Source of the DNA: Terriglobia bacterium
GTDB taxonomy: Bacteria > Acidobacteriota > Terriglobia > Acidiferrales > UBA7541
DNA: 37,455 nucleotides
Assembly: GCA_020073585.1 (NCBI GenBank)
Contig: JAIQEV010000038.1
Location: forward strand, 1 to 37,455
Direction of reading: 5' to 3'
Part shown: positions 12 to 33,372 of the stretch, one piece after another
Layout of the letters: every line of letters begins with the position of its first letter
Position numbering within the stretch: position 1 is the stretch's first letter
Translations under genes and position numbers: made by a program
Notes under the pieces: model-generated
Seen by the model: only the letters and a program-made list of their open reading frames with translations
The model's database searches: none
What the model was told of the DNA's origin: nothing

Positions 12-227
12 TTAATCCTTACCTTGCATTAACTTACCGATGCTCGCCGCGCCAGACGCCACACCACCCGACCGGACCCTACCAGACCTTAACAAATTCA
101 TAATTTTTAGTTTTTCATTTACTCTACGTTGTCTAATTAAGTCTGTACCGGCTTCGTCATTGACCTGCCAGAGCTTGTGCCGCAATACTTCGAACGTGAC
201 GGGATCGAGTTGTTTTGTCGTAGCCAC
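12..227 (-). pseudogene. hyuB: Truncated hydantoinase B/oxoprolinase fragment at window edge
   Basis: Starting from a GTG at 227, the first ~28 residues (including DPVTFEVLRHKLW and QVNDEAG) match the conserved N-terminus of HyuB, the partner of HyuA in hydantoinase, oxoprolinase and acetone/acetophenone carboxylase-type enzymes. The start sits 12 bp after the HyuA stop with an AGGA-like ribosome site, as expected for a hyuAB operon. From about position 143 leftwards the frame continues for ~43 codons of basic, low-complexity sequence unlike HyuB (family proteins are usually over 500 residues), and the DNA becomes AT-rich. The real gene is therefore cut after its start, either by a genomic rearrangement or by misassembly at a contig end. 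The N-terminal identity is seen directly; the cause of the break is not. Confidence 0.7.
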
Positions 228-239
228 TTTAGTCCTGTG

Positions 240-2324
240 CTACTGCACGATAATGTTCCGGTAGCCGTCCAAATACCCCTCGCGCTGCGGCGGAATTACC
301 ACCGTAGTCGTGGGACCTTCGATCACCGCCGGACCCGGAACCTTGTTCCCAGGGTTCAGGCGTCCATAGTCATAGACGGGCGTTGGTATAAACCCGGGAC
401 CTTGAAAGAAAATGCTTCGCTCGTGTTTGACCGCGCCGGAGGAATCCGTATCCCCACAAACGCGCCGAATCAGCTTCGGTTTGTGCGTTCGTCCATAGGC
501 ATCGACGCGGAATGTGACGATTTCTTTCCCCGCCTGTTCGTATGCGGAACCCTTCCCGTACAGTTCCTCATACCGAACCTTGAAAGCTTCATGGATCCGC
601 TCGAGATCTTCGGTGGTAATCGTTCCCTCCGGCAGCGTCAGCCAGACCTCGTTGTGGATCTGCCTCCGGTAACGCATGCTCACGAGCTGAACCACCGTGA
701 TCTCGCCTGCGCCGAGTTTTCCGCTCCGCAGGCCATCCACGGCTGTATGCCTGAGGGAGTCCAGTATCTTGTTGACCGTGCCGGCAGCTACCGGCAGAGG
801 CATGGGATCCGAACGAGAGCACGTCTGCAACACGTCGCAGGATGCAATTCCCAACGCGGAAAACGCCGCTGCCATCGCCGGCACAACCATCCCGCGCGCT
901 CCCAGATCGCTTCCAAAGGCCACGCCGTGCACCGGCCCGGCGCCGCCAAACAGAAACAGAGAAAACTGGCTTGGCAGATATCCCTTCTCCACCGTGCTCT
1001 TGCGGATCAGATCGGCCATATGCGAGTTGACGATGCGGAAGATCGCCGCCGCCGCTTCCTCTACACTCTGTTTGGTATACGCGCAGATATGCTCTCGAAT
1101 CGCCTGACGTGCTTTCTCGGGGTAGAGCTTCATGCGCCCGCCCAGGAAAAAATCCGGATTGAGATAACCCAGGACCAGATCGGCATCCGTCACGGTCGGG
1201 CGGGCGCCGCCTTTCCCGTAGCAGGCCGGTCCAGGAATCGCGCCGGCGCCGTCCGGGCCGACATGCAAAACGCCATTGTCCGGTTCCACCCAGGCAATGC
1301 TTCCTCCCCCGGCGCCGATGGACCGTATATCGATAGTGGGAATCGCCAGATTATATTTATCAATGACGGGTTCGCGGGCATAGAGAGCCTGTCCGCGGGC
1401 GATCAGCCCCACATCGAAGCTGGTGCCGCCCATATCAGTGGTAATGACGTTCTCCAGGCCCAGAAGTTCCCCGAGATGTTTGGCGGCGATGACCCCGCCG
1501 ATGGGCCCGGAATTCAGAGTGCGCACGCTGGTGCGCGCAGCCTGGGTCGAGGTAAGCACACCGCCTGCGCTTTGCATGATCAAGGGCGCGCTGCGCAGTC
1601 CCGCGGCCTGCAATTGCCTTGTCAGGCCCTCAAAATAGGTAAGCATGGTGGGCCCGATGTAGCTGTTGATGACGGTTGTGGCGGTCCGCTCATACTCGCC
1701 GATCACCGGAACCAGCTCGCTCGACACAGTCACGAAGATTTCCGGGTGCTGCTGCTCGATCAATTTGCGGAGCAGCAGCTCATGCTCCGGCATCTTGAAT
1801 GACCAGAGCAGGGAGATGGCGATCGCCTGCACTCCTTGCGCAACCAACTGATCAACGGCCCGGCGCGCTTTCTCTTCGGCCAGGGGCACCAGGACCGCGC
1901 CCTTGTAATCCACGCGCTCGTTTACTTCCACGATGCGATCCCGGGGGACCAGAGGTTCCGGCTTGCTGAACCGCGCCGGAAACGTGAGCTCGCTTTCCCC
2001 CAGGCCCGCCGTCTTCTGATGGGCCCTCCCGATGAGAATCGCATCTCCATGGCCAGCGGTTGTGATGAGACCGGTCTTGGCCCCCCGCCGCGTCAGGAGT
2101 GCGTTCAGGCCAACGGTTACCCCGTGGGCCAGAACGGTGACCTGCTGAAGGAAGTCGCCGAGTTTCAATTCCAACTGCTGGGCGACCACCTCCAGCGCGT
2201 CCAACACGCTCTGGGAGCTTCCCGTAGAGGAAGGAACCTTGCCGACCGTGACAGTTCCGGCATCGTCGATGGCCACACAGTCTGTAAACGTTCCGCCTGT
2301 ATCGATGCCTACAATGTAACGCAT
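240..2324 (-). CDS. hyuA: Hydantoinase/oxoprolinase subunit A (HyuA family)
   Basis: This is a 694-residue protein of the HyuA/acetone carboxylase beta/5-oxoprolinase family. These are ATP-dependent ASKHA-fold enzymes that open or carboxylate amide, ketone or lactam substrates together with HyuB. The N-terminal phosphate loop GIDTGGTFTDCV is at residues ~5-16, the central block has GGTSFDVGLI and SIGAGGGSIAW, and the C-terminal Hydant_A_C-like region ends near GYLDGYRNIIVQ. The start at 2324 is preferred because AAGGGA lies ~9 nt upstream and the protein then begins at the family-typical IVGIDTGG. An ATG at 2345 overlaps the upstream stop (ATGAGTGA) and would add seven residues. The gene is coupled to the FAD oxidoreductase upstream and to hyuB downstream. 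The substrate cannot be read from the sequence. Confidence 0.92.
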   Translation of the reverse strand: MRYIVGIDTGGTFTDCVAIDDAGTVTVGKVPSSTGSSQSVLDALEVVAQQLELKLGDFLQQVTVLAHGVTVGLNALLTRRGAKTGLITTAGHGDAILIGRAHQKTAGLGESELTFPARFSKPEPLVPRDRIVEVNERVDYKGAVLVPLAEEKARRAVDQLVAQGVQAIAISLLWSFKMPEHELLLRKLIEQQHPEIFVTVSSELVPVIGEYERTATTVINSYIGPTMLTYFEGLTRQLQAAGLRSAPLIMQSAGGVLTSTQAARTSVRTLNSGPIGGVIAAKHLGELLGLENVITTDMGGTSFDVGLIARGQALYAREPVIDKYNLAIPTIDIRSIGAGGGSIAWVEPDNGVLHVGPDGAGAIPGPACYGKGGARPTVTDADLVLGYLNPDFFLGGRMKLYPEKARQAIREHICAYTKQSVEEAAAAIFRIVNSHMADLIRKSTVEKGYLPSQFSLFLFGGAGPVHGVAFGSDLGARGMVVPAMAAAFSALGIASCDVLQTCSRSDPMPLPVAAGTVNKILDSLRHTAVDGLRSGKLGAGEITVVQLVSMRYRRQIHNEVWLTLPEGTITTEDLERIHEAFKVRYEELYGKGSAYEQAGKEIVTFRVDAYGRTHKPKLIRRVCGDTDSSGAVKHERSIFFQGPGFIPTPVYDYGRLNPGNKVPGPAVIEGPTTTVVIPPQREGYLDGYRNIIVQ

Positions 2325-2337
2325 CCGCTGGGTCCCT

Positions 2338-3960
2338 TCACTCATCCGTGCGCGTGGCCGCTCCCACTTCGATTTTCTCCATGCCCAGGTCGTGCAGCAC
2401 GGCATTGGCGGAGTTAATGCCCGGTGCCGTGGTCACACCCCCGCCGGGATGTGTCGCGGCACCTGTCAAGTATAGATTGGCGAACTGCGTGCGATAGTTG
2501 GCCAAACCCGGCATCGGCCGGAGTCCGTACATCTGGTCCAGGGTCATATCGATATAGAAATCGCAGCCGCGCGGCAACCCCAGGCGGCGCTCCAGGTCCA
2601 GGGGCGTGACCACGTGCCGGCCTTTCGCAATTTTACGGAAGTTCGGCACATACTGGCTCACAACTTCGAAGACGCGCTCGGCATAGGCGTCCTTGACCTG
2701 GTCCCAGTGCTGACCATTGGCCAGATCATATGGGGCGTTCTGCACCGCGAGGTGCATCGTGTGTTTGCCAGCCGGCGCCCGTGTGGGATCCAGCACGGAA
2801 TGGGTGAGCATCATCACCGTTGGGTTGTGGGAGGGTCTCCCCTGCGCCCCGTCCATGTAGGCCTGGTCAACATATTCGGCCGAAGGCGAGATGACCGCGC
2901 AGCCATTATGACAGGGTGCGGGCCCCTTGCTGGGATAGCATGCATATTCCGGCAGACCATCGAGAGGAACATGCATGGTCAGCAATACCGCCGTGGACTT
3001 CACGCGGTTTACCTTGCGCACGAACTCTTCGTCGAGGTGCTCGCTCCCGATCAAGCGCAGGAATGTGGCTTTGGGATCCAGGCTGGAAATGACGATGTTG
3101 CTTTCCAGGACGGTTCCGTCCGACAACTCGACTCCCGCGGCTCTGCCCTTTTCGAGCAGGATGCGCTTGGCGCCATTGTTGGTGAACACCGTCCCGCCGA
3201 AATGCTTGACGGCCCGCTCCAGCGCCACCCCCAGCATGCCCGACCCGCCCTTGGGAAAACGGCACCCCACCTTGTGGAAGCGGGCAATCATGCCGGCGTT
3301 CAGCCCGGACCCGGGACTGGAAGGAGCTAGCCCAAGCTGGATGGCCCAATACGACAGCGCTCCCTTGACGTAGTCACTCTCAAACCAGTGATCGAAGACT
3401 TGCCGCGCGCTCGTCAGCGTGGACCAGACAAACTCCGCGGCGATCTCCGGCGAATCCACGAACTTCATCAGCGACAGCATCTGATCGAGCGGCGGCGGCT
3501 CGCTGAAGCTCAACGTGGACATGAGCTCGCGCAGCCCCAAAGCCCACTTGATAAACTTGGGATAAGCCTGCCCGTCGTGCTTGGAAAGCCGGCTGATTTC
3601 GGCCGCGGTCTTGTCCAGATCCCGGTAAAACATAAGATACTTTCCGTCCGGATACGGGCAGAACATGAACGGATCCGCCTCGATATACTCCAAGCCGAAC
3701 CTAGCGAGATCCAGGTCCACCATGGCGGGCGAAAACTGCGTGTAGATGTGCACCGTGCTGTACGGATCGCTGAAGTGTCCGGGAAAAAATTCTTCCGTGG
3801 CGGTTGCTCCGCCCACCTTTGCGTTCTTCTCGACGACGGCGACTTTCAGCCCTTTCTTCGAGAGATAGCCTGCGCAGGTCAATCCGTTATGGCCTGCCCC
3901 GACGAGGACCACATCATATTTACCGCCGGCTTGCTTGCGATTCGTTTCAGCGTTTCCCAT
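2338..3960 (-). CDS. FAD-dependent oxidoreductase, phytoene desaturase/PYROXD2-like
   Basis: This 540-residue flavoprotein has a Rossmann dinucleotide motif GAGHNGLTCAGYL at residues ~21-33, followed by the acidic ribose-binding end of beta-2 (VVEKNAKVGGATATEEFFPG). Its C-terminal FAD loop contains GAATHPGGGVTTAPG. This pattern is typical of the CrtI/CrtO-PYROXD2 branch of NAD(P)/FAD-dependent oxidoreductases, which desaturate or oxidise lipophilic or cyclic substrates. The ATG at 3960 has a strong ribosome site (GGAGGAACG). The 3' end overlaps an alternative hyuA start, so the two are probably translationally coupled. No carotenoid genes are nearby, so a role in the same catabolic pathway as HyuAB is more likely than pigment synthesis. 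That role is an inference. Confidence 0.88.
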   Translation of the reverse strand: MGNAETNRKQAGGKYDVVLVGAGHNGLTCAGYLSKKGLKVAVVEKNAKVGGATATEEFFPGHFSDPYSTVHIYTQFSPAMVDLDLARFGLEYIEADPFMFCPYPDGKYLMFYRDLDKTAAEISRLSKHDGQAYPKFIKWALGLRELMSTLSFSEPPPLDQMLSLMKFVDSPEIAAEFVWSTLTSARQVFDHWFESDYVKGALSYWAIQLGLAPSSPGSGLNAGMIARFHKVGCRFPKGGSGMLGVALERAVKHFGGTVFTNNGAKRILLEKGRAAGVELSDGTVLESNIVISSLDPKATFLRLIGSEHLDEEFVRKVNRVKSTAVLLTMHVPLDGLPEYACYPSKGPAPCHNGCAVISPSAEYVDQAYMDGAQGRPSHNPTVMMLTHSVLDPTRAPAGKHTMHLAVQNAPYDLANGQHWDQVKDAYAERVFEVVSQYVPNFRKIAKGRHVVTPLDLERRLGLPRGCDFYIDMTLDQMYGLRPMPGLANYRTQFANLYLTGAATHPGGGVTTAPGINSANAVLHDLGMEKIEVGAATRTDE

Positions 3961-3981
3961 CGTTCCTCCGGAATTTACAAC

Positions 3982-4137
3982 TCAAAGTCCTTTTTTTTCC
4001 GCACCGCATGCTGCGTCCCCTACCGTTCTGGACGCCCTATTTTCTTCCGCAGCCTGCATCCGAATGCGCTCTGCCTCACAAATAGATAACTCCTGCGGCT
4101 TTCCTGCTTCGGCAGCTCGCTGGATTTGTTCCCGCAT
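3982..4137 (-). CDS. Possible 51-residue small protein between CoxG-like and FAD genes
   Basis: The 216-bp gap between the SRPBCC gene and the FAD oxidoreductase contains an open frame of 51 codons on the operon strand. It begins MREQIQRAAEAGKPQELSI and ends in a lysine-rich tail before TGA. It is charged and probably helical, with no signal peptide or metal motif. There is no convincing ribosome site, and the frame is open further upstream, so it could also be a remnant of a longer gene. I do not recognise a family. It is listed because nothing else explains the gap. Confidence 0.3.
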   Translation of the reverse strand: MREQIQRAAEAGKPQELSICEAERIRMQAAEENRASRTVGDAACGAEKKGL

Positions 4138-4176
4138 GATACCCAGCGGCCGGATCCGGAACGCCGGTGACCGCCG

Positions 4177-4617
4177 CTACGCGAGGGCGGCTTTGATCGA
4201 ATCCACCAGAACCTTGATGCTCTGCCTTGCCACCGGCTCCAGCAAATTCGCCGCGGCCGCAGGCAGCTTCATCTTCAGGCTGGATTCACCCACCCAGTTA
4301 ACCTGCGTCTGGCCGCCTTTCTCTTCCAGGTCGAATGCCGCGGTCACGGCCATCGGTTCGCCCGCCACGGTGCCGCTGCCCTTGTACGTCGCGTGGCTGT
4401 GCGGCTGTTCCCCACTCAGCGCCAGCCGGATCTTGGCCGTGGACTTAATGAAGCCCAGACCCACTTTCACTTGCACGGTGAATTCCCGGTCGTCGTGGAT
4501 CTCCAGATCCTGGAGATTGGGCAACAGCGGCGCGAATTTCTTCGGATCTGTGAGCAGCCCGTAGACGGTTTCGCGATTCTTCAACACTTGGAAATTTCCG
4601 TTAAATTTGAAGTCCAT
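4177..4617 (-). CDS. SRPBCC/CoxG-family protein
   Basis: This 146-residue protein belongs to the SRPBCC (START-like) fold, in the branch named after CoxG, a protein encoded with CO dehydrogenases and other molybdenum hydroxylases. It shows the family pattern: an N-terminal strand MDFKFNGNFQV, a helix containing VYGLLTDPKKFAPLLPN, the strand pair around FTVQVKVGLGFIKSTAKI, and a long amphipathic C-terminal helix (ANLLEPVARQSIKVLVDSI). Full length for the family. It follows the TonB-dependent receptor on the same strand after 148 bp that contain a strong hairpin. CoxG proteins are linked to membrane attachment of CO dehydrogenase. The only molybdenum-hydroxylase sequences here are remnants at 9.5-10.2 kb, so it may now have another role. 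Confidence 0.8.
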   Translation of the reverse strand: MDFKFNGNFQVLKNRETVYGLLTDPKKFAPLLPNLQDLEIHDDREFTVQVKVGLGFIKSTAKIRLALSGEQPHSHATYKGSGTVAGEPMAVTAAFDLEEKGGQTQVNWVGESSLKMKLPAAAANLLEPVARQSIKVLVDSIKAALA

Positions 4618-4662
4618 TGGATTGACTTGGCCGCTTCTCCCGTAGGGTTAGATCTGTTCTTC

Positions 4663-4697
4663 GATTGGCGCGCCGCCCCGGGGTGGCGCCCCCAATC
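4663..4697 (-). terminator. Strong hairpin between TonB receptor and CoxG-like gene
   Basis: The outer arms GATTGG and CCAATC, together with inner arms GCGCC/GGCGC, form a GC-rich hairpin of about 35 nt, ~70 nt after the receptor stop codon. No T-tract follows on the minus strand, so it is at best a weak or Rho-independent-like attenuator, or an mRNA-stabilising structure, rather than a full terminator. Confidence 0.4.
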
Positions 4698-4765
4698 ACC
4701 TTCGCGACTTTTGCAAGGTCCAATTGCCCATCCAGCCCCTCTCATTGCCTCCGCTTGTGACTAAC

Positions 4766-7700
4766 TCAGAAACTGAATCGCAATGAGAATTGCAGTTGGC
4801 GCGGGTTGGCCACGGCCGACGGTGTTCCGTAAACGGGATCGGGCGAACCTTGAAAGTGCAGCGGCCCGCTCCCGCAAACGTTTGGCCCTCCAGCCGGGCA
4901 GAAGTCCGCGGCACCGTAGACCGTATTGAAGTACACAATGTTCAATGTGTTCAAAACATTGAAGGCCTCGGCACGGAATTGCCCTTTAATCCTTTCAGTC
5001 AATTGGAAACTCCGCGATACTCCCACGTCCACAGTCCGTAACGAGTCGCCCTGGAAAGTACTCCGGCCTTCGAGGCCTACCCTGTCGTTCAGATTAAAGA
5101 CGTCTCCATTGACATCGGATCCAGCATAAATATTGAAGTGGTGCGGCGATTGAAGCGTCGTGATCGTGCTGAAGGTAAAATCGCGCAGCAAAACCGGCCA
5201 CTTTGAAGGTGTCGTTAGCAGGACATTGAGCACTGCCCGCTGGCGAACGTCATCAGGCGACAGCGCACGCTCGGCCCGGAAATTTCCGGTATCTTGCGGA
5301 AAAGCGGCGAACGTTGGATTCGCATCATCGTCGATCGTCTTCGAATACGTGTAACTGAAACCGTAGGACAAGTACTTCGTCGGGCGCTTCTGCACGTTCA
5401 AGAGCAAGGCGTCGTACTGCGAATCAAAGCGCGAATTATATTCGAAGTAAATCGCGTAGGCCGGGTTTCGCTCACCGGGAAATAGCGGCGGTCCAGCCGG
5501 CGGCGGCGCGGGATAGCCGGGGCACTGAAAACTTCCGCAAACCTGCATCCAGTTCACGAAGTACACGTTCTTGTACCCCGCGTTGCCCTTGGAATCGTGC
5601 ACCAGAACTTGTCCGCTGGGATCCGGCTGGTTCACATTATAAAAATTCCCTAAATGGACCCCCCGGACGTGCAGGAAGGTGATGTTCAGCACAGTATTCT
5701 TGAATGGTTCGAAATCTACGCCCAGGCTGGTTTGTAAACCATACGGCTTCTGGGTATCCGCATTCCACCTCGTCACCGTCACTAGTCCCTGGTATCCGCA
5801 ACCCGCTAGCACCCCTCCCGGGCAGAACCCCATTGGCGTTCCGTCCGGATACAGGCCTTGCAGCATGGTGCCTAGCGCAATGTTCATGATTTGCGGGGAA
5901 CTCGCAAAGGCATACAGCTGTGACGGGGCGTTCAGATTGCTTTCTGTGGCCAAGTATTTTGTCTGCCCGCCGCAGCATGTCCCTTGGGGATACAAGCCTT
6001 CGGAGAGGATGATGCCGTGATATAGTCCGAAACCTGCGCGAACAACGATCTTTCGCGAAGTCCCGAGATCGTAGGCGAGTCCAATCCGCGGATCAAAGTT
6101 CTTGTATTTCGTGTTAAACACTCCCGACGGCCAGGTTTCAAAGTCCCAGCGCACTCCGCCATTCAGCGTCAGTCGCTTCCCCGCTCGCCATTTATCCTGC
6201 ACATAGAATCCCTCGTAGGTATGGCTGGGATTCCACTGCACCTGGTTCTTGATGCTATCGGGAAAACTGCTCCCCTGAAAAATCGCAGGATTGAAACTCG
6301 GCTCTGTGTAATTCGGGGCCTGCAGTCTCATAAAGAACAACACGGATGGCGTCGGCCCCAACCCCGCGTAGGCCCCTGTCCCCAGCAGTGCATTCACGCT
6401 CGGGAAGTCCGCTTCGAACGGGTACCACAGCACAAACTTCTCATCCGTCTTCACGAAATTGAAATCGCCTCCGAAACTGACCGTATGGCGCCCTGAAGTC
6501 CAAGTTACGTTATCTTGCAACTCAAAGCGCCGCTCTCTGTAAAAGTCGGGATTCCCCCGGTTCACCCCGATTGCAAATTCATTCGCTACCTCAAGATGCG
6601 GCTGCGTAGTGGCGGTGGGAAAATCAAATGAGCGCCGCGCAAATTGGCCGCGCAACTCATTTCCCAAGTGTGGCGACAAATTCGTGGCCAGGCTGATAAC
6701 GAGCGACTGATCCCGGACGAAGTTATGCTTGAACGCCGAGGGAAGATCGAAGCCATTGTTGAGTGGCGATAGGTTCGTCATTCGCGCGTCCGTAACGAAA
6801 TAGCGCATGAATAGATAGTTTTTTCCAAAATTGTGATCGAAACGAACGAAACCGTTGTCGTTGTTATTCGTGCGCAGCACGTTCAGCCCAGCGGGCTCCG
6901 CCGGCAGCCCAAAAACGTTCACCTTCACCTGATTGATTGCGGCGATGTTGGCCAGCACGATCTTGTTATAAAAGGGCGATTCCCCGCGCCGCTGCCCTTC
7001 GTAGTTCGCAAAGAAAAATGTCTGATCCTTCCGCAGCGGCCCCCCGATGACTGTACCGAACTGGTTTTGCCGCAACGTGTGCAGTCCAGGCGCATCCAGC
7101 AAACCCGTTGCGTCCATAACGTTGTTCCGGAAGTACTCATAGAGCGAACCGTGCCAGTCGTTCGTCCCGCTTTTCGTAATGATGTTCACAATCCCCGCGT
7201 TGGAGCGCCCAAATTCTGCGCTATAGTCGGTGTTGATCACCCGAAATTCCTGCACCGCCTCCTGCGACGGCGTGGCCCGCTGGTTTTGTGAGGCAGTGGA
7301 AATATTGTCAGCCCCGTCCACGGCCACAAAATTAAAGTGAATGCTCTGCCCCGCAAACGAGATATGCGTGCCGGACTCCACCACGGCGTCCGTGGAACCC
7401 GATGTCGAATTGCCGATTTGCACGGCCGGGGACAACAGCGTAAAGCTGATGAAGTCCCGCCCATTGACCGGCAAATCGGCGATCTGTTTTTCCACGATGA
7501 CCGAACTCACCTGGGTCTTCGTGGTCTCCACCAGCGGTGATTCGCCCGAAACGGCCACGCTTTCTGCCACCGTCCCCGGCCGAACCGTGAAGTTCAGGCT
7601 CGCTTCCTGGCCCACTTGCAGAGTCACTTGCGCGTTTTCGACACCAAACCCGGGCTGCTCAGCCCGAATGCGGTACGTACCGGTCGGCAGTCCCGTCAGG

Positions 7701-7918
7701 ACATAATTGCCATCGGCCGTGGTAAGTGCCGCGCGTGTAAAGCCGGTCGCCACGTTCACCACCGTTACCTTTGCTCCCGTAACAGCCCCCCCGCTCATGT
7801 CGTATACGTACCCCGCGAGTGTGGCCGTTACCGCTTGCCCATAGCTGCTCGTCGCGAGGGCCAGCAAAACCAGCAAAGCGCAGACTGCACTGAGGAAAAT
7901 TGGGCGCAACCGCTTCAT
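4766..7918 (-). CDS. TonB-dependent receptor with carboxypeptidase-regulatory domain (Oar-like)
   Basis: This is a 1050-residue outer-membrane transporter. It has a signal peptide (MKRLRPIFLSAVCALLVLLALATSSYGQA), a CarboxypepD_reg-like beta sandwich at residues ~28-110 (ATLAGYVYDMSGGAVTGAKV), and a plug region at ~115-240 containing QIADLPVNGRDFISF and VQEFRVINTDYSAEFGRSNAG. A long 22-strand-type barrel follows, ending in the aromatic terminal signature SLRFSF. The start at 7918 is chosen because AGGAGGGG precedes it and the signal peptide begins there. A promoter and an operator-like palindrome lie upstream. It heads the operon with the CoxG-like, FAD oxidoreductase and hyuAB genes, so it probably imports their substrate. 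The cargo is unknown. Confidence 0.92.
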   Translation of the reverse strand: MKRLRPIFLSAVCALLVLLALATSSYGQAVTATLAGYVYDMSGGAVTGAKVTVVNVATGFTRAALTTADGNYVLTGLPTGTYRIRAEQPGFGVENAQVTLQVGQEASLNFTVRPGTVAESVAVSGESPLVETTKTQVSSVIVEKQIADLPVNGRDFISFTLLSPAVQIGNSTSGSTDAVVESGTHISFAGQSIHFNFVAVDGADNISTASQNQRATPSQEAVQEFRVINTDYSAEFGRSNAGIVNIITKSGTNDWHGSLYEYFRNNVMDATGLLDAPGLHTLRQNQFGTVIGGPLRKDQTFFFANYEGQRRGESPFYNKIVLANIAAINQVKVNVFGLPAEPAGLNVLRTNNNDNGFVRFDHNFGKNYLFMRYFVTDARMTNLSPLNNGFDLPSAFKHNFVRDQSLVISLATNLSPHLGNELRGQFARRSFDFPTATTQPHLEVANEFAIGVNRGNPDFYRERRFELQDNVTWTSGRHTVSFGGDFNFVKTDEKFVLWYPFEADFPSVNALLGTGAYAGLGPTPSVLFFMRLQAPNYTEPSFNPAIFQGSSFPDSIKNQVQWNPSHTYEGFYVQDKWRAGKRLTLNGGVRWDFETWPSGVFNTKYKNFDPRIGLAYDLGTSRKIVVRAGFGLYHGIILSEGLYPQGTCCGGQTKYLATESNLNAPSQLYAFASSPQIMNIALGTMLQGLYPDGTPMGFCPGGVLAGCGYQGLVTVTRWNADTQKPYGLQTSLGVDFEPFKNTVLNITFLHVRGVHLGNFYNVNQPDPSGQVLVHDSKGNAGYKNVYFVNWMQVCGSFQCPGYPAPPPAGPPLFPGERNPAYAIYFEYNSRFDSQYDALLLNVQKRPTKYLSYGFSYTYSKTIDDDANPTFAAFPQDTGNFRAERALSPDDVRQRAVLNVLLTTPSKWPVLLRDFTFSTITTLQSPHHFNIYAGSDVNGDVFNLNDRVGLEGRSTFQGDSLRTVDVGVSRSFQLTERIKGQFRAEAFNVLNTLNIVYFNTVYGAADFCPAGGPNVCGSGPLHFQGSPDPVYGTPSAVANPRQLQFSLRFSF

Positions 7919-7964
7919 GAGCCCCTCCTGATTCTCTCGCTCGGAAGTCATGTACAGCGGAAAG

Positions 7965-7994
7965 CTAATACACCACGACCCAAATTCTTGTCAA
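7965..7994 (-). promoter_or_regulatory. Sigma-70-type promoter of the TonB receptor operon
   Basis: On the minus strand TTGACA (7994-7989) is followed after 18 bp by TATTAG (7970-7965), directly preceded by TG. This lies ~50 bp upstream of the receptor start at 7918. The -35 box is a perfect consensus. The assignment is by eye. Confidence 0.55.
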
Positions 7995-8003
7995 GCACTA
8001 AAA

Positions 8004-8014
8004 TGTCAGTGACA
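8004..8014. promoter_or_regulatory. Perfect palindrome TGTCA-G-TGACA, probable GntR operator
   Basis: This 11-bp perfect inverted repeat with one central base lies immediately upstream of the -35 box of the TonB receptor promoter. Short inverted repeats with this geometry are typical of operators for FadR/FCD-type GntR regulators. A one-mismatch copy overlaps the start of the adjacent GntR gene (9336-9346), which links the site to that regulator. Its position suggests activation or modulation rather than simple blockage of the polymerase. Confidence 0.5.
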
Positions 8015-8085
8015 GGTCAGCTGCGCGTTATCAACATGTTAGAATATAAAGAAAAGAATGCGGAGGAGGCCCGGCGAGAGGAGGT

Positions 8086-9336
8086 TTACGGGTGTGCCTC
8101 GGGCACCGTCTGCCCGTCCAGCGAATAGCATTTGCGGATACTGCCCCCCAGCTCGCGGATGTCCGCCCCGTACACGTGGATCGAAATGGCCGTTTCGCGC
8201 GAGGGATTATCCACGGAATGGATATTCGGGCTGTTGGGATCAAAATAACTGACATCTCCCCGGCGATGATGCGTCACCCCGGAAGGAATTAACCCATACT
8301 GGCCGTCTGTCCCCCCGGCCAAAAGGTACCGCTGTTCCCGCTCTTCTCCCTGGTACACGCCCACGACCCCCCAGCAGGTATGGTCATGAATGGGGCTGGA
8401 ATGCCCCGCCTCACGCACTAACGCCAGAATCGAGAACCACCCGTCCGGGTGGCGGTACAAGAGGTACTGGCGGTACGCGTTGGTTGCCGAAGCCACCTGT
8501 TCCGCAGTGAGCAGGTTTGGATTCGCCAGCAGCCGGGGCATCTTCTCGGCTACACGGACCGGAGCCTCCATCCCTTTGCCGGCCATGACGATCTGGGCCA
8601 CCTCCTCCGCAAACTCCCGCAGAGTAATGCTCTCCCACCGCATGCCGCCGCCGAAGTGCACCTGCATCGGTCCGGGGTAGGAAAGAATTGCATTCATGAC
8701 GATCTTCCGGCCCGTCTCAATCTCTGCCGCTGAAATCCGTGCCGCCGCCTCCCCATCCCCGGCAAGGAGCGCTCCAATCAAGGCATCGTGCCCAAACGGC
8801 AACTCTTCCCCCATGCTCCAGGATGACAGTCCCAAGTGGAACAGGCGTTCCAGTTGATCATGCAGCTTTTCCAGTATGCCGGCGAGCCGGTCATTGGCAC
8901 AGGTCCGCGCCACGGTGACATGAAACAGTCGATTCGCTCGGAGCAGAGCCGCAACATGCGCTTTGCGTGAGCCCGGATGCGCTGTGCACAGGGCATTCAG
9001 CCGCTTCAGATGTTCCCCGTCCACGTGTCCGGCCGCAAGCCGGACCGCTGTGGGTTCCAGCAGTTGTCGAAGCTGGAAGATGGCTTGCACATCCCGGACG
9101 GTGACCGGAGCAATGAGATATCCTTTGCGCGGGATGGCCCGGACCCATTCCTCCTGGCAGAGCCGCAACAGCGCGGCCCGCACCGGAGCCTTGCCCAGCT
9201 TGTAGCGCCGCGCCAGCTCGGCCTCCGTCACCTCGATGCCCGGCTGCAGCGCGGCGCTTACGATGTCCCGCTTGATGCGCTCGAAGGCCACATCGCTCAG
9301 GCGCTCCCCGCCATTCGCTTTTCTATATACTGACAT
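8086..9336 (-). CDS. GntR/FCD transcription regulator fused to cysteine-dioxygenase-like cupin
   Basis: This 416-residue protein has two parts in one uninterrupted frame. Residues ~10-75 are a GntR winged helix (AFERIKRDIVSAALQPG, EAELARRYKLGKAPVRAAL, RKGYLIAPVTVRDV). Residues ~80-215 are an all-helical FCD ligand domain. Residues ~230-416 resemble the cysteine dioxygenase/COG5553 cupin group: SPIHDHTCWGVVGVYQGEE gives H317 and H319, and NIHSVDN gives H373, matching the three-histidine iron site of thiol dioxygenases. Ordinary FCD regulators stop at ~220-250 residues. The start at 9336 has AGGA upstream and overlaps an operator-like palindrome, pointing to autoregulation. It lies directly upstream of the catabolic operon on the same strand. 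Whether the cupin is a catalyst, an oxygen/thiol sensor or a ligand pocket is open. Confidence 0.85.
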   Translation of the reverse strand: MSVYRKANGGERLSDVAFERIKRDIVSAALQPGIEVTEAELARRYKLGKAPVRAALLRLCQEEWVRAIPRKGYLIAPVTVRDVQAIFQLRQLLEPTAVRLAAGHVDGEHLKRLNALCTAHPGSRKAHVAALLRANRLFHVTVARTCANDRLAGILEKLHDQLERLFHLGLSSWSMGEELPFGHDALIGALLAGDGEAAARISAAEIETGRKIVMNAILSYPGPMQVHFGGGMRWESITLREFAEEVAQIVMAGKGMEAPVRVAEKMPRLLANPNLLTAEQVASATNAYRQYLLYRHPDGWFSILALVREAGHSSPIHDHTCWGVVGVYQGEEREQRYLLAGGTDGQYGLIPSGVTHHRRGDVSYFDPNSPNIHSVDNPSRETAISIHVYGADIRELGGSIRKCYSLDGQTVPEAHP

Positions 9337-9397
9337 ATCAGTGACATCCTACTGAAAGGTTCATTGTCATAGATCTGCCGTTTCTTTCCTCTTGTCA
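9331..9397. promoter_or_regulatory. Cluster of TGTCA/TGACA half-sites at the GntR-cupin start
   Basis: TATCAGTGACA at 9336-9346 matches the TGTCAGTGACA palindrome at 8004-8014 with one change and overlaps the regulator's start codon. Additional half-sites occur at 9331-9335 (TGACA), 9365-9369 and 9393-9397 (both TGTCA). The arrangement is consistent with autorepression by the GntR-cupin protein. It could also influence the plus-strand genes that begin at 9504. Confidence 0.4.
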
Positions 9398-9503
9398 TCC
9401 CCGCGCATTTGCACTAGACTGCGCGCCGCGCTTCGGATTCCATTGTGATTCTAGTGTAAGTTGCAGCCTCGAATCCACTAAAAAGGGGGCGCAGGAAGCT
9501 GGC

Positions 9504-10234
9504 ATGTACCCACATCTCTTCTCCTATCACCGTGCCGGATCCCTTAAAGAAGCCGCCACTCTTCTGCAGGAGCTTGGGGAGGAAGCCAAGCTCATCGCGG
9601 GGGGGCAGAGCCTGATCCCGCTGATGAAGATGCGGCTGGCGCGACCGGCAGCACTGATTGACATCAACCACATTCCAGGATTGAGCGGGATCGAGCGGCA
9701 CGACGGGGAGCTGCGCCTGGGGGCGCTGGCGCGGCACGCGGACATTGAAGCGTCGAGCGTGGCCGCGGCGATACCCATCGTGCACGACTGCGCGGCGGAG
9801 TCGCCGACATTCAGGTGCGCAACATGGGCACCATCGGGGGGGCGAGCGCCGAAGCCGACCCCAGCGGGGACTGGGGCGCGGTGCTGCTGACGCTGGAGAC
9901 GCTAGTGCGCTCCTTCGGGCCGCAGGGCGAGCGCACGGTGACGCTGGGGGACAAGGAGACCTGCAAGGACGCGCGGATCGTGCTGGGCTGCGTGGGGCTG
10001 ATGGCCATACGCGCCCGGGAAGCGACCTTCAACGGCGCCAAGGGCATGGGCGAGGGCGGAGCGGCGCCGGTGCACACCATCTCCGCGGCGCTGCAGGATG
10101 CGCTGTATGCGAACGGCGTGATCATCGAAGAGTCGCACAACAACGGCGATTCCATCTACCGCGCGCTGAAACGAGCGCAAATAGGCGAATTCACCACGCT
10201 GGTTCGCGTGGAACGCAGCCGCCTCTCTCGCTAG
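9504..10234 (+). pseudogene. CoxM-like FAD subunit, frameshifted, deleted, and fused to a CoxL-like tail
   Basis: The ATG at 9504 (AGGAAG upstream) opens a clear molybdenum-hydroxylase FAD-binding subunit: MYPHLFSYHRAGSLKEAATLL, LIAGGQSLIPLMKMRLARP, IDINHIPGLSGI. At about 9795 the frame slips. The continuation VADIQVRNMGTIGGA is in the next frame and would be restored by one extra G in the GCGG/AGTC run. After GERTVTLGD at ~9950 roughly a third of CoxM is missing before KDARIVLGCVGLMAIRAREA. From ~10030 the frame changes family: NGAKGMGEGGAAPVHTISAAL is the C-terminal signature of the molybdopterin-binding large subunit (CoxL/XdhB). CoxS and most of CoxL are absent, so no functional enzyme is possible from this locus. 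Confidence 0.85.
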
Positions 10235-24446: not shown

Positions 24447-24557
24447 AACGCTAGACAGACCAATCAGATAGCGTTTCTACCGCTGCCTTGGGCGCAGGAG
24501 GTCCCCGGTTCAAATCCAGGCGCCCCGACCACCTACTTCTTTATTTTCAATGCACTG
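24421..24557 (+). repeat. tRNA-Pro-derived att-like repeat, right copy
   Basis: The direct-repeat partner of 11553-11689. The hairpin at 24447-24475 is followed after 11 nt by 24487-24531, read as tRNA nucleotides 32-76: loop CTTGGGC (UGG), GCAGG, AGGTC, T arm CCCGG-TTCAAAT-CCAGG (one mismatch), acceptor CGCCCCG, A, CCA. The 5' tRNA half is absent; only four bases of a 5' anticodon arm (CTGC) could pair. The conserved 3' block at 24532-24557 overlaps the last codons and stop of actF. Together with the left copy it brackets 12.9 kb that hold exactly the starch module. Confidence 0.75.
24447..24475 (+). other. Hairpin AACGCTA-N15-TAGCGTT in the right repeat
   Basis: Counterpart of the hairpin at 11579-11607, with one compensatory pair change (C-G here, T-A there), identical stem and loop lengths, and identical spacing to the tRNA-derived segment. 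Confidence 0.65.
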
Positions 24558-25705
24558 CTGAGGAACGGGTCGCCAACAGGAATCGGCTCTGACGCAAAAA
24601 ACGAGCGCATGGTCACCAAGAACAACCCCGCCGCCGCGACTGAAAGTGCTGCGAAGTCCCAGATCGCAGGCCGGGAACTTGCCGCTGAGAACGGAGGAAT
24701 GATCATGAGGTAGAGGTCGCACACACGGCCTAGCAGAACGATCAGGGAAGCGGCGGCGAGGGTTCGTGGGTTTATCTTATTCGCGCGCGGCAGAAGCAGC
24801 AGAAAGGGCAAGGTCCAGTTCAGCAGCAGGTTCACGACAAACAAGCTTCCCCACCCCGAACTTGTCCTGAGCACCATGTACGAGGTTTCTTCGGTGAGAT
24901 TGGCATACCAGATCAACATGTACTGGCTGAACCAGATGTAAGCCCAAAACGTCGCGAAGGCGACGATCAGGCGGCCCAGATCCAGAAACTGATCGTTGCT
25001 AACGCCGTGGCGCAGCGGGCCCGTCGCACGCAGGGCCAGGGCCAAGAGAGCGAGCGTGGCCAAACCCGAAAGAAACATTCCGGAAAAGTGGTAGATACCG
25101 AAGATCGTACTGGCCCAGTGGGGCTCGAGGGACATAACCCAGTCCGTGGACGCCAGCCAGAAAGTCACCCCAAAAACCACCATGAAGGCAACCGAGAGAC
25201 GCGTGTTTTTCCGGCTCAACTCGATGCCGCCTTCCCGGTCCTGACGGCGCGAATTCCTTCGAATCGCCGACGAAAATCCCAGCCAGGCCGCCAGATAGAT
25301 CACGGCACGAACGAGAAAGAAGGGGTAAGAAAGCCAGGCGTGCTTGAAACCGGCCCATCCTTCCGTGACGATTTCCGAATGGCCGTACCAAGGATAAATC
25401 GCCGGATGCAGGAGGAGCACGGCCAGAATTCCAAGGCTTCCCACGGGCAGGACGGCGGCGAGAGCTTCTCCCACGCGCCGCAGAGGAATGCTCCACACCG
25501 CTCCGGTCGCATACTGGAGGGCGACAAAAAAGATGCCGGACAAGCCGAGGCACACCATCGCGAAGCTGGCTAACAGCAGATCCGCCCAAGCCCGGGCAGG
25601 AGCGATCCTGAGGCCACTGAGGAGAATCACGCCACCGATCGCGGCGACGGCGGCTGCCGGCCTCCGCAGGGCGGCGAGTCGCGCAGGAAACTGGCGGTCA
25701 TTCAT
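24533..25705 (-). CDS. actF: Alternative complex III subunit ActF (quinone-binding membrane subunit)
   Basis: This 390-residue polytopic membrane protein has about ten hydrophobic segments and is related to ActC but shorter. Diagnostic stretches are HAWLSYPFFLVRAVIYLAAWLGFSSAIRRNSRRQD, DWVMSLEPHWASTIFGIYHFSGMFLSGLA, and FWAYIWFSQYMLIWYANLTEET. ActF forms one half of the membrane core of ACIII, a cytochrome bc1 replacement that oxidises quinol and reduces cytochrome c or an oxidase. It overlaps actE by 4 nt (ATGA). The last seven codons and the stop (SALKIKK) are encoded by the tRNA-derived repeat, so the natural C-terminus may have been replaced. No actG follows. Confidence 0.9.
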   Translation of the reverse strand: MNDRQFPARLAALRRPAAAVAAIGGVILLSGLRIAPARAWADLLLASFAMVCLGLSGIFFVALQYATGAVWSIPLRRVGEALAAVLPVGSLGILAVLLLHPAIYPWYGHSEIVTEGWAGFKHAWLSYPFFLVRAVIYLAAWLGFSSAIRRNSRRQDREGGIELSRKNTRLSVAFMVVFGVTFWLASTDWVMSLEPHWASTIFGIYHFSGMFLSGLATLALLALALRATGPLRHGVSNDQFLDLGRLIVAFATFWAYIWFSQYMLIWYANLTEETSYMVLRTSSGWGSLFVVNLLLNWTLPFLLLLPRANKINPRTLAAASLIVLLGRVCDLYLMIIPPFSAASSRPAIWDFAALSVAAAGLFLVTMRSFFASEPIPVGDPFLSSALKIKK

Positions 25706-26298
25706 GGCTGGCCTCCCGCCGGAACGGACGAAGCTTGCTTCTGGAGAGAGCGCACGAAAGCAATCACGCGCCAGCGATCCTCTCGGGAAAGCTGGCTGGC
25801 ATAGGAAGGCATGTTCTTTTGGCCGTAGGTCAAAATGTGGAAGATCTGGCCATCCTTGATTTTCCTGGCGTTGTCCGCATAGAGCGAAGGCGGCGCGGGA
25901 AAACCTCGCTGCGCGACGAGGCCGTCACCTTTGCCCGTGGCGCCATGGCACGGCGCACAGAAATTAGAGAAAACGACGGAGCCGCGCCCGATAGCTTGGG
26001 CGTCATCGGGCCGCAAGGGGCTCTCCAAAGTGTCTCCCGCGCGAAGCGCATCTTCCGGGGTGGGCGCATAGTGCACTGGGAGAAATCCGCGCGGGATCGT
26101 TCCCCCGACCGGAGCCTGCAGAGTCATCCCGTTGGGAAAGTTGGGGTTCGTGGAATAGGCATTGAAGCGCGGGGTTCGCACCATCTCCGGAATAAACTCG
26201 CGGTTGGGCCGCCAGGGTTGTGGGCGCACCGCCCAGTTCAGCGCAAGACTCGCCAGGAACGCCGCCAGCAGCGCGACGTTCAGAGTTCGCCGGGACAT
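25702..26298 (-). CDS. actE: Alternative complex III subunit ActE, monohaem cytochrome c
   Basis: This 198-residue protein has an N-terminal membrane anchor/signal ([20 protein letters not shown]) and one c-type haem site CAPCHG. The distal ligand is probably in the methionine-containing segment GQKNMPSYASQLSREDRW. The segment NGMTLQAPVGGTIPRGFLP is typical of ActE, which sits on the positive side of the membrane and passes electrons out of ACIII. It overlaps actD by 19 nt and actF by 4 nt, so it is strictly within the operon. Confidence 0.92.
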   Translation of the reverse strand: MSRRTLNVALLAAFLASLALNWAVRPQPWRPNREFIPEMVRTPRFNAYSTNPNFPNGMTLQAPVGGTIPRGFLPVHYAPTPEDALRAGDTLESPLRPDDAQAIGRGSVVFSNFCAPCHGATGKGDGLVAQRGFPAPPSLYADNARKIKDGQIFHILTYGQKNMPSYASQLSREDRWRVIAFVRSLQKQASSVPAGGQP

Positions 26299-26822
26299 CC
26301 AGCCTCCTCGATCCGTTCTTCAACCGCCACGACGCCAAACTTCTCAAATAGCCTGCGCACCCGCACCAGGTCGAACTGCGCATCGGACTCTTCCAGCATC
26401 AGGACGAAGCGGTCGTCGGTGACGCCCGGAAAAAGCATGGCCGGCCGCTTGCCCGGCCGGAGGCGCGCCAGCACAAGGAACGTAAACACGGTCGTCAGCC
26501 CGGCGGAAAGCACCATGACTTCAAACGTCACGGGCACGAATGCGGGAAGAGAGTTCCAGGGCTTGCCACCGATGTTGAGCGGCCAGTCCACCATGGTGGT
26601 CCAAAATTCAAACCAAAGTTTCAGCGCGGCCCCGGTGATCGCCGCCAGGAAACAGACCCAGGGAAGACGCGAGGCACGCAAGCCCATTGCCGCGTCCAAG
26701 CCATGAACGGCATACGGGGTGTAGACGTCGAGAATCTTCAAACCCTCTGCGCGGGCTTCCTGCGTGACCCCGAGCAGATTCGCTTCATCGTCAAACACTC
26801 CGACAACGACTCGCCGGCTCAT
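26280..26822 (-). CDS. actD: Alternative complex III subunit ActD (DUF3341)
   Basis: This 180-residue protein opens with [23 protein letters not shown] and [18 protein letters not shown], the conserved head of the DUF3341/ActD family. Two transmembrane helices follow ([21 protein letters not shown] and [21 protein letters not shown]) separated by [19 protein letters not shown]. ActD is a structural membrane subunit without cofactors. Its start overlaps the actC stop by 4 nt (ATGA). Confidence 0.92.
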
Positions 26823-28267
26823 GCCAATCCTCCTTCCCCGGTCCGCACGGCGGCGGTCTGCAATTGCTCCAGTGGCCGTTGTGCGGGGTGCCGCTCGGAA
26901 CCCGGCACCTGCGCCTGGTGGCCGACGTGCAGCACGCCTTTCACCTCGGCCATGGCAATGACCGGCAAGAACCGGCAGAAGAGGAGAAATAAGGTGAAGA
27001 ACAGGCCGAAACTCCCGAGCAGCATGGCGATCTCGATGGGCGTGGGGCGGTAACTGGTCCAGCTGGAGGGCAAGAAATCGCGGTGCAGCGAGGTCACGAT
27101 GATGACGAAGCGTTCAAACCACATGCCGACATTGACCAGAATGGAGACGGGGAAGACCAGCCAGAGATTGCTCCGGACCTTCCGGAACCAGAGCAACTGC
27201 GGGGTGAGCACGTTGCAACCCACCATGATCCCATAGGCCCAGCCGAACGGCCCAAAGGCGCGATTCATAAACGCGAATTCTTCATAAGGATTCGTGGAAT
27301 AGAGAGCGGTGAAAAATTCGGTGGCATAGGCGATGGCGACAATCCCGCTGGTCAGCAAGAGCAGCTTGCACATGACGTCAATGTGACGGAGCGTGATGTA
27401 GTTTTCCAGGCGCATGGTCTTGCGCGCCACGAGGACCAGCGTCAAGACCATGGCCACGCCCGAGAAAATCGCGCCGGCGACAAAGTACGGCGGGAAGATG
27501 GTGGCGTGCCAGCCGGGAATCACTCCGGTCGCGAAGTCCCAGCTCACGATGGTGTGCACCGAGAGAACCAGCGGCGTCGCAAGTCCCGCGAGCATCAGGT
27601 ACACCGATTCGTAGCGATGCCAGGTGCGGAAGGAGCCATTCCAGCCGAGGCTCATGACCGACGCCAGGCGATGACGGAAGCCGCCGCGCAAGCGGTCGCG
27701 AACCGTCGCCAAATCCGGGATCAGTCCCAAGTACCAGAAGACCAGCGAGATCGTGAAATACGTGCCGACCGCAAAAGCATCCCACACGAGCGGCGAACGA
27801 AAATTCACCCACAACGGCCCGCGCGTGTTGGGATACGGAAACAGCCAGTACGCCATCCAGGGCCGGCCGAGGTGAATCACGGGGAAAATGCCCGCGCACA
27901 TGACCGCGAAGATGGTCATGGCCTCGGCCGAACGATTCACGGAGGTGCGCCAGCGCTGGCGCAGCAAGAAGAGGATCGCCGAAATCAAGGTGCCGGCGTG
28001 GCCAATGCCGATCCAGAAAACGAAGGATGTGATGCCCACGGCCCAGCCGACGGTGCGATTCACGCCCCACGTGCCGATTCCGGTGGCTACCTCATAGCTC
28101 ACGGCCAATGCGCCGAGGAGCAGGAGCGCAAGCGCCACAAGAAAACCGCCCCACCACAGCGGCGTGGGCCGCCCTTCGAGTGCGTGGCAGATATCTCGCG
28201 TGACATCCGCCGGTGTCTTGTTGCCGGTGATCAGAGGCTTTTGCGCCGGTAGAAGGAACTCAGCCAT
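26819..28267 (-). CDS. actC: Alternative complex III subunit ActC (NrfD-like membrane subunit)
   Basis: This 482-residue NrfD/PsrC-family protein is the main quinol-binding membrane subunit of ACIII. It has about ten helices and begins [20 protein letters not shown], as ActC proteins do. Conserved family blocks include [67 protein letters not shown], and [37 protein letters not shown], with the likely quinol-pocket histidine and aspartates. The start at 28267 overlaps the actB stop (ATGGCTGA); an upstream in-frame start at 28300 lies inside actB and is less likely. Confidence 0.93.
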
Positions 28268-31200
28268 GGTTCTGGCCCTCTTTTGAGGTTCTGTCCGCAT
28301 AATCGCGGTTCCGGACGACGGCGAGGTAATTCACCGCAGGCCGAAAGTTGAACTCCTCGAGTACCCCGAACCTCCGCGGATCGCGCGCCATCCGGGCGAT
28401 GCGGCTGTTCGGATCGTTCAGGTCCCCGAAAACAATCGCTTGCGATGAACACGACTGCTGGCACGCGGTCTGGATCTGTCCGTCGGCAATCGGCTTGCCG
28501 CGCCGCCGGGACTCGATGCGCGCGGCCTCAATGCGCTGCACGCAGAAGGAACACTTTTCCATCACGCCGCGCGAACGGACGGTCACATCGGGATTGAGGG
28601 CGAGATTCTGGAGACGATCGTTGCGGACATAGTTGAACCAATTGAACCGGCGCACCTTGTAGGGGCAGTTGTTGGCACAGTAGCGCGTGCCCACGCAACG
28701 ATTGTAAATCTGCTGGTTCAGTCCTTCGGCGCTGTGCACCGTCGCGACCACCGGGCAAACGGTTTCACACGGCGCGTTGTCGCACTGCTGGCAGACCATT
28801 GGCTGCTGCACCACGTCGACGTCCGCATCGCCCGAGTAGTAGCGGTCGATCCGCATCCAGTGCATCTCGCGATGGCGAAGAACCTCATCCTTGCCCACGA
28901 CGGGAATGTTGTTCTCGGCCTGGCAAGCGACGACACAGCCGGAACAGCCCGTGCACGCCGTCAGATCAATGGCCATCGCCCAGCGATGGCCATTGTAGGG
29001 GTGGTCCGCCGGCCACAGGCCGTTCTTGCCGGGCGGGGCGGGTGAAGGTTTCCCGGCTTCCGCGAGCAACGCGGAGACGGTCGTCTCGCGCACGATTTCG
29101 CGATGTTCGCCGCCGACCAGCGGCACGTTCTGCGGCATCGTCAAGCTGTGATGGGTCTGCGTGGAGGCCAGCGCGTGCCGCCTGCCGGTCTTCGTCAGGC
29201 GGACCCCGTCATGAACGTATTGCAGGCTTCCGCCGGCCAGGATGAGCATCGGTGCGGCATTCTTGCCGATCCGGCCGTCTTCGCCCACGTCCGGCCCGCC
29301 GAAGAGCCATTTCGGCCCGGCGCTGGCGAAGCGCTCCGTCGCTTTGCGGCCGTAGCCGAGTGCTACGGCGATCACCTGGTCGTGCTGTCCCGGCTGGACA
29401 TAAACCGGCAGTTCCAGCGCGGCAGCGCTTCCCTTCCCGGAATCCGCTTCGAGGCGAACCACGTCCCCGTCTTTCAGTCCGAGCCGCTGAGCCGCCGCAG
29501 GAGAAACGCATGCGTAGTTATCCCAAGTCACCTTGCTGATGGGGTCCGGCAGTTCCTGCAACCAGGGATTTTCCGCGTGGCGGCCGTCCAGCATCGCGAC
29601 CTTAGGATAGAGAACCACGGAGAACTCGCCGCCAGCGCGAGCCGGCTTCGGCACAGCCTGAAGTGTCGCAGCGCGGAAATGGCCGGGCTTGGGCGCCGCG
29701 GAAGGCGCTTCCGCATACCCGGCTTCGACGGCACGATCCCAGAACGTTTGGAAATCCGTATCGCTTTTGCGCTGCGGGAATACATTCTCGCGCCAGTAGT
29801 CCCGAAGGATGTCGTAGGCCGCTTTAGGCTGGCCTCCCCAAATCGCGAGACTCTCCAGGACAGCGCGCGTATTGCTCAGAGGATGTATCGCCGGCTGGAA
29901 CAAACTGATGGTGCCGCGCACCGGTTCGGCGTCGCCCCAGGATTCCAGGGAATGGTGGTCCGGGCAAACAAACCGCGCGAGCGCCGACGTTTCATCCAAA
30001 CGGCCGGCGAAGCTCACTACCAGCGGCACTTTTCGAATCTGCTCGGCCAGCGCATCTCCGTTGGGCAGGTCGTAGACGGGATTAACTCCGTGGAGAAAGA
30101 GCGCCGCGATCTTTCCGTCACGCAACTCTTCCAGGAGCGCCTGCAGTTCGCGGTCGTTGCCGGCCTTCTGCTGCGAAGGACGCTCCAGATCCAGCGACGA
30201 TCCGTAATTTCCGAGCACATCGTTGATGAAATTGACGAGCACCTGCAGGCGGATATCCTGCGAACCGCACAGGACCAGGCTCCGGCCACGCGCCTGCCAG
30301 AGCCGGTGCGCGAGGTCGTCGAGCGATGCATCCAGCGGTTGATCCGTCGCGCCGACGCTGAGAGGAAACGCCGCGCCCGCGAGATGCGCAAGCCGCCCGG
30401 CAAGCCGCACCATCACATCGCCGAGCTCTTGCGGCGACACGCGAATGCGTCGGTCGGCTTTGGCGCCGGTCACCGACATCCGCGACTCGAATTGTGCGTG
30501 ATACGACATCCGCGGCGGATAGGCATCGAGCCGGCGCCCGGCGGCGTAGTCGCGGCTGAACTCCACCGGGGATATCCACGTTCCCAGAAAATCGGCGTCG
30601 AAACTCACAATCACATCGGCGTGATCGAACCGGTAGTGCGGCAGCAGGCGCTCCCCGTGCGTGTCCTTGTGCGCATCGAGGATCGCCGAGCTGGACAGTC
30701 CGTCATACACGATGTGGCGCGCATCGCGGAATTGCGCCAGGAACTTCCGGATCTCCGCGTTCAGCGTGGGACTCGATATCGTTCCGGAAAGGAAGCGGAC
30801 GGGACTCCCCGCATTGCGGTACAGGGCAAGTTGCGCGGTGATTTGCCGGTCCACTTCTTCCCAGGTGGCGGGCTTGCCCTCCCGCTGAGGCTCTTTGCAT
30901 CGGTGCGAATCGTAGAGTTCCAGCAGCGAAGCTTGTCCCACGGCGCAGAGCCCGCCGCGCGAAACCGGATGTTGCGGATTGCCTTCCAGCTTGATGGGCC
31001 GGCCATCGCGGTTCTTTGCCAGAACCCCGCAAGCGGCCGGGCAACCTCCGCAAGTGGTCGCGTAGAAATAGGAAACTCCGGGAACGATCTCTTCGGGCTG
31101 AATCAGATAAGGGATCGCTTTCTCGACGGGGGCCCGAGAACAGCCGATCCCGGCCGCCGCTACGGCGGCCGTAAAGCCTGCGGCCTTCAAGAAGGAGCGC

Positions 31201-31328: not shown

Positions 31329-31337
31329 GCGCACTCC

Positions 31338-31991: not shown

Positions 31992-32002
31992 CCGAGGCCC
32001 CC

Positions 32003-33328: not shown

Positions 33329-33372
33329 GGCGTTTCTCCCTCTCTGCTTGATTCAAAAATGAATCGCGGTAC

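Follow-up and report, generated by a model that had tools for sequence, protein, structure and literature searches.

A GntR/FCD transcriptional regulator joined in one protein to a thiol-dioxygenase-like cupin in two genomes of a single Terriglobia genus

In the stretch of Terriglobia DNA analysed here (37,455 nucleotides, hereafter the window), we identified a gene in which a GntR/FCD regulator and a thiol-dioxygenase-like cupin form a real one-protein fusion. A sequence-only reading had placed such a gene at positions 8086–9336, and these coordinates are correct; the strand, which it did not give, is the minus strand (9336..8086), and the same interval contains stops when read on the plus strand. 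The gene (8086..9336, minus strand) specifies 416 aa from an ATG start in one uninterrupted frame, as had been proposed, with the GntR, FCD and cupin domains all present in a single protein. Its assignment to a winged-helix/FCD regulator likewise held, with both Pfam families represented at nearly full length: the GntR winged-helix DNA-binding domain (9115..9294, minus strand; residues 15–74) matches positions 3–63 of the 64 in PF00392 (E 2.2e-11; 43.7 bits against a cut-off of 27), and the FCD ligand-binding domain (8725..9081, minus strand; residues 86–204) matches positions 2–121 of the 125 in PF07729 (E 5.8e-21; 75.6 bits against a cut-off of 24.3). A linker of approximately residues 211–236 (8629..8706, minus strand) lies between the two halves, and the thiol-dioxygenase cupin (8101..8637, minus strand; residues 234–412) is matched by phmmer to 3uss/4tlf at an E-value of 6.5e-17. 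The Pfam family CDO_I scored 21.7 bits over residues 296–389, below its curated cut-off of 23.

Neither an assembly join nor a separate C-terminal gene, which had been set beforehand as observations against the fusion, was found when we checked for them; the same fusion is intact in a second genome of the genus (G009), where it lies on a 1.6 Mb contig and is 97% identical across the 416 residues. Window positions 148–9546 share a common gene order with that genome over 9.4 kb, at 94.6% identity. Within the fused gene 64 of the 1251 bases differ between the two genomes, 50 of them at third positions, and dN/dS is 0.077 overall, 0.088 for residues 1–210 and 0.067 for residues 237–416. The ratio is low in each half, and both have therefore been kept by purifying selection. 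In the linker DNA (8629–8706) none of the 78 bases differs, against 64 of 1251 for the gene, a sample small enough for this to be chance. A sign of decay at the locus is a divergent CoxM-like (FAD_binding_5) remnant on the plus strand (9504..10234), which is broken into two frames, the first of which gave the Pfam match; in G009 only the start of this gene is present, and the common gene order ends inside it. That breakage would fit an explanation of the fusion as an assembly join or a pseudogene in a decaying locus, but the intact counterpart on its long contig and the dN/dS of 0.08 refute this account, which we regard as highly improbable.

With respect to the class of the cupin, the sequence-only reading had called it cysteine-dioxygenase-like; that it is a thiol-dioxygenase-like cupin stands, whilst phmmer, Foldseek and fold comparison refine the assignment, placing it nearer to the Gln-type 3-mercaptopropionate dioxygenases (3MDO) than to mammalian cysteine dioxygenase (CDO). 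Searched alone, the cupin half matched solved 3MDO proteins at E-values of 6.5e-17 to 1.2e-15, compared with 5e-4 or worse for mammalian CDO and 6e-4 for mercaptosuccinate dioxygenase (6xb9 and 4qma, of the 3MDO group, carry cysteine dioxygenase type I as their deposition name). The predicted structure of the cupin is confident (pLDDT mostly 80–98) and adopts the family cupin fold, aligning to 4tlf with a Z-score of 21.1 over 171 residues (rmsd 2.0). Z-scores were 20.8–21.1 for 3MDO and its kin, 18.1 for mercaptosuccinate dioxygenase, at most 17.9 for CDO and 14.5 for ergothioneine dioxygenase, and Foldseek also put 3MDO first for this model. The alignment used for modelling consisted of 51 rows, cupins only, and as a result the linker and most of the GntR–FCD half are of low confidence, so that contact between the domains is not visible in the model. 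No GntR relatives for the structure alignment were found in a viral scan, a wider alignment offered no stretch that could be used, and a trial in which two GntR rows were included looked misaligned over the cupin and was left out of the modelling. With most of the N-terminal half at low confidence, the fact that GntR chains are missing from the fold matches listed carries no meaning.

Active-site positions were mapped through alignments with the Pseudomonas and Azotobacter enzymes, using residue roles given in parts of PMC8050391, and eight recognised residues were found in the cupin: Q290, H317, H319, H373, S385, H387, Y389 and R401. The H317-x-H319 pair (8380..8388, minus strand), expected to supply two iron ligands out of three, aligns with His90 and His92 of 3MDO, and H373 (8218..8220, minus strand), expected to be the third, with His142; the three histidines thus occupy the positions first claimed for them when aligned to solved 3MDO. 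The Ser-His-Tyr motif of thiol dioxygenases is present in the alignment as S385-x-H387-x-Y389 (8170..8184, minus strand). R401 (8134..8136, minus strand) aligns with Arg168 of 3MDO, which contacts the substrate carboxylate according to PMC8050391, as consulted in part, and is invariant in nine of nine alignment rows; this equivalent of Arg168, replacing Arg60 of CDO, is a Gln-type trait. The neighbouring K402 was considered as the Arg168 equivalent, which would have meant a changed substrate residue, and was rejected because the alignments place R401 there. By count along the alignment, Q290 (8467..8469, minus strand) corresponds to Gln62 of the Pseudomonas enzyme and stands at the marker position of Gln-type thiol dioxygenases, which in the Azotobacter enzyme is Gln63 according to the same paper (PMC8050391). 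Judged from its sequence, the cupin is nearest to Gln-type 3MDO, and its predicted catalytic residue set is complete.

The fused cupin thus resembles the Gln-type thiol dioxygenases (4tlf/3uss, 6xb9) in fold (Z ~21), in its three histidines, Ser-His-Tyr motif and Gln marker and in its Arg168 equivalent; it differs from them in sharing 28–31% identity, in the absence of a C-terminal tail and in being joined to a DNA-binding regulator. In a 30-row tree, built from 17 of the 80 loci of the cupin scan described below together with both fused proteins and 11 further rows, a branch with support of 99/93 divides it from the clade containing the annotated Sphingobium 3MDO, and it falls among actinobacterial and Chloroflexota cupins, the forks around the fused row being poorly resolved. 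The annotated Sphingobium 3MDO gene itself (locus L061, 4001–5886) lies between sulfonate ABC transporter and thiosulfate sulfurtransferase genes, and at two further loci (L046 and L062) a sulfurtransferase-like gene was seen by eye after the cupin. The nearest sequence relatives found for the fused cupin are stand-alone actinobacterial cupins, for example L063 and L060, with the same active-site residues and up to 49% identity over the core, in a scan from which the best 80 of at least 587 loci were kept.

The branch leading to the fused cupin is long, at 1.46 changes per site, and its function could have changed. The branch length lends weight to an explanation in which the cupin acts as a sensor only, binding metal and ligand and driving DNA binding without substrate turnover, as does the lack of the C-terminal tail, which 3MDO has but which is missing from most stand-alone relatives as well. 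A precedent is offered by the cupin sensing domains on XRE-cupin regulators, as described in part of PMC7901475. Against this, the cupin evolves under purifying selection and retains the recognised catalytic residues, the Ser-His-Tyr motif and the carboxylate-binding Arg among them; we consider a sensor devoid of turnover unlikely.

Full-length fusions were found in 2 of 151 relatives, 42 of which had some match, and among 36 genomes of the genus the cupin occurred in 2, both of which carry the fusion. Among the matches listed for a draw of 396 genomes of the phylum, the fusion was found in the window's own genome only, G009 not being among the matches. In three draws of 400, 396 and 301 genomes (the first and third overlapping), run with E-value limits of 1e-30 to 1e-35, the matches listed covered the regulator half only. 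The best four to six candidates per genome were scored in the phylum draw and in three further draws, and, given the strict limits and the few candidates per genome, a weakly similar fusion could be missed. Ten cupin loci were chosen, and in none of their ten genomes did a match span both halves. Pseudomonadota were covered as a group through their plasmids only, and 0 of the 1020 matching plasmid records covered 80% of the fused protein.

A whole-protein search of GTDB genome contigs gave no relative, and for this reason the cupin was searched as an alignment, keeping the best 80 (L063–L142) of at least 587 confirmed cupin loci. Using both tblastn and a profile, we found no GntR domain in frame with the cupin among these 80. 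Separate GntR genes were detected in the flanks of two loci, two genes in L140 (by tblastn) and one in L133 (by profile), in each case more than 1 kb from the cupin. FCD-to-cupin matches with one stop in G410 and G249 were considered as broken fusions and rejected, since at each locus the cupin is a gene of its own with other genes ahead of it. Locus L123, titled Proteobacteria, was likewise rejected as a Pseudomonadota entry, its phylum draw recurring in that of the Chloroflexota-titled contig L078; because the two share a phylum draw, one of their titles is probably wrong. After one of the best 80 loci was dropped for Ns, the residues outside the search patterns were found to be highly conserved in the stand-alone cupins, with H373 kept in 79 of 79, Q290 in 75 and R401 in 76. 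H317, H319, S385, H387 and Y389 were also kept in 79 of 79, a result partly built in by their position inside the motifs that fetched the loci.

In 62 of these best 80 of at least 587 loci a LysR gene on the same strand ends 55–320 bases upstream of the cupin's extrapolated start, as detected with a profile made from three of these LysR genes, two of which come from loci in the count; no LysR gene was found divergent or downstream within 600 bases of the cupin in the 80. All 62 paired loci are actinobacterial by title. Pairing of this cupin subfamily with a regulator gene is therefore common there, through adjacency rather than fusion: the stand-alone actinobacterial cupins mostly have open frames of ~190–220 codons, and differ from the fused protein in having no GntR fusion and, in these 62 loci, a separate LysR gene before the cupin. 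Ten chosen proteins encoded beside stand-alone cupins comprised two LysR regulators, three without a family at the limit used and five of unrelated kinds. We found no description of a LysR–cupin pairing among the open-licence papers listed on this subject, nor does PMC3359211 contain one in the part consulted.

Such pairs bear on a further explanation, in which neighbouring regulator and thiol dioxygenase genes merged into a bare tether, the halves remaining independent and the fusion only fixing their ratio. A cupin behind a same-strand regulator gene of another family, as in those 62 of the best 80 of at least 587 loci, would be a natural precursor pair, and the linker is mostly of low confidence in the model, as a bare tether would allow. 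The partner there is LysR and not GntR, however, with GntR genes in the flanks only at L140 and L133 among the 80, and the two genomes have identical linker DNA (no difference in 78 bases, a small sample). On balance we view a bare tether as somewhat unlikely.

The regulator half matched seven solved GntR regulators at E-values of 3.4e-7 or better. Its stand-alone relatives share 40–47% identity among the matches listed, matching to the end of the FCD domain only, and the best of these reached 47% in the 396-genome phylum draw and 45% in the 400-genome draw. Alignments, together with part of a paper on DgoR, place the FCD metal-site positions at N135, H139, H183 and E205, the last just past the Pfam match; many FCD regulators, though not all, carry an Asp/Asn-His-His-His site. 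The fused protein accordingly shares the GntR and FCD domains of FadR-type regulators (3c7j and 7xp0, and stand-alone relatives such as L028 and L143–L148), whose matches stop at the FCD domain, and differs at the fourth metal position, which is Glu here and His in 3c7j, whilst the Asn also occurs in 3c7j. The same Asn-His-His-Glu set (window positions 8720–9081) was observed in the close relative L045, with His last in L059. This set of residues suggests that a second ligand site may persist. Ten genes were chosen beside eight stand-alone relatives of the regulator, and nine of them fall into catabolic or transport families, the tenth having no family match; the neighbours are diverse, and the FCD effector is not inferable from them.

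The fused gene heads a same-strand cluster in both genomes. The next gene downstream (4766..7951, minus strand), its order conserved in G009, encodes what we take from its sequence to be a TonB-type outer-membrane receptor, and is a possible target of the regulator. It is followed by a CoxG-like gene (4177..4617, minus strand; PF06240, E 2e-23), an FAD oxidoreductase gene (2338..3960, minus strand; Pfam DAO/Amino_oxidase) and a hydantoinase A-like gene (240..2405, minus strand), the last assigned by family search on its G009 counterpart; in G009 hydantoinase B comes after hydantoinase A. In a genus-wide search the FAD oxidoreductase was found at 98% identity or more only in the two genomes with the fusion, the next best being 41%. 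A candidate operator lies over the start codon of the fused gene (9330..9355, no strand assigned) and consists of two overlapping palindromic patterns, both of which are present in G009: TCAGT-N8-ACTGA at 9338–9355, with 0.01 occurrences expected by chance in the window, and CTGA-N4-TCAG, with 0.36 expected and so not unusual by chance, each pattern having been chosen after inspection. No terminator-like site was found in positions 7800–9600, where shuffles average 1.5, and no thiol-metabolism gene was recognised beside the fused gene. Elsewhere in the window, a minus-strand run at 24533–37435 resembles, by eye, membrane-bound respiratory complexes with cytochrome c, iron-sulfur and molybdopterin-type subunits.

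Of the explanations considered, the most likely, although we hold it tentatively, is that the protein is a catabolic regulator which acts locally and controls its own gene, its dioxygenase domain being competent and giving some coupling to thiol and O2. According to this explanation, a GntR/FCD head of the repressor type would carry a fused Gln-type thiol-dioxygenase domain with a full catalytic site, which would bind Fe(II) along with a small thiol acid and, with O2 present, convert the thiol into a sulfinate by oxidation. Either binding or turnover at the cupin may then alter the dimer and, in doing so, DNA binding at the site over the gene's own start codon; the putative targets are the gene itself and the neighbouring cluster of receptor, CoxG, FAD oxidoreductase and hydantoinase genes. 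The FCD pocket probably still binds an effector of its own, which would give the protein two inputs. We base this explanation on the presence of the fusion in two genomes under purifying selection, on the eight Gln-type residues and a confident cupin model nearest 3MDO, on the candidate operator kept in G009 and on the catabolic and transport neighbours of the regulator relatives, as well as on the precedent of cupin sensing in XRE-cupin regulators (PMC7901475, in part) and the LysR gene before 62 of the best 80 of at least 587 cupin loci. Against it, the fusion is known from just two species, both of the same genus, and could be a tether of recent origin that lacks allostery. The long branch of the cupin, the choice of the operator patterns after inspection, the lack of a recognised thiol-metabolism gene alongside and the low confidence of the linker and most of the GntR–FCD half in the model also count against it.

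A more far-reaching possibility is an undescribed class of one-component regulator, in which the cupin's iron-catalysed turnover of its own ligand sets the output, so that the protein reads the product of thiol and oxygen. If this were true, the cupin would destroy, whilst consuming O2, the very thiol that sets its DNA-binding state; we judge it distinctly improbable. The view that the architecture is not a described regulator class agrees with the open-licence literature searched, in which, among the papers listed, no description of a GntR or other transcriptional regulator fused to a cysteine or thiol dioxygenase or to a cupin was found. A survey of the domains that accompany bacterial transcription factors (PMC5882156) mentions neither cupin nor dioxygenase in its main text. 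The nearest known concept is that of the XRE-cupin regulators of Pseudomonas, which, in the part of PMC7901475 consulted, similarly combine a DNA-binding head with a C-terminal cupin and exert local control of both uptake and catabolism; they differ in belonging to another DNA-binding family and in having cupins described as signal-sensing. That role was assigned largely by prediction, and the word thiol is absent from the main text of that paper (PMC7901475).

In bacteria, regulators that respond to thiols or to oxygen usually rely on cysteines, haem or iron-sulfur clusters. Thiol dioxygenases of animals and plants are reported to sense oxygen by acting on a protein substrate that is a separate molecule. 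A regulator carrying its own thiol dioxygenase would be a one-protein version of such oxygen sensing, and directly testable as such. The LysR genes found just before the cupin in 62 of the best 80 of at least 587 loci point to a wider tie between this enzyme subfamily and dedicated regulators, and the rare pairing described here might allow the cell to link gene control with a thiol or with oxygen.
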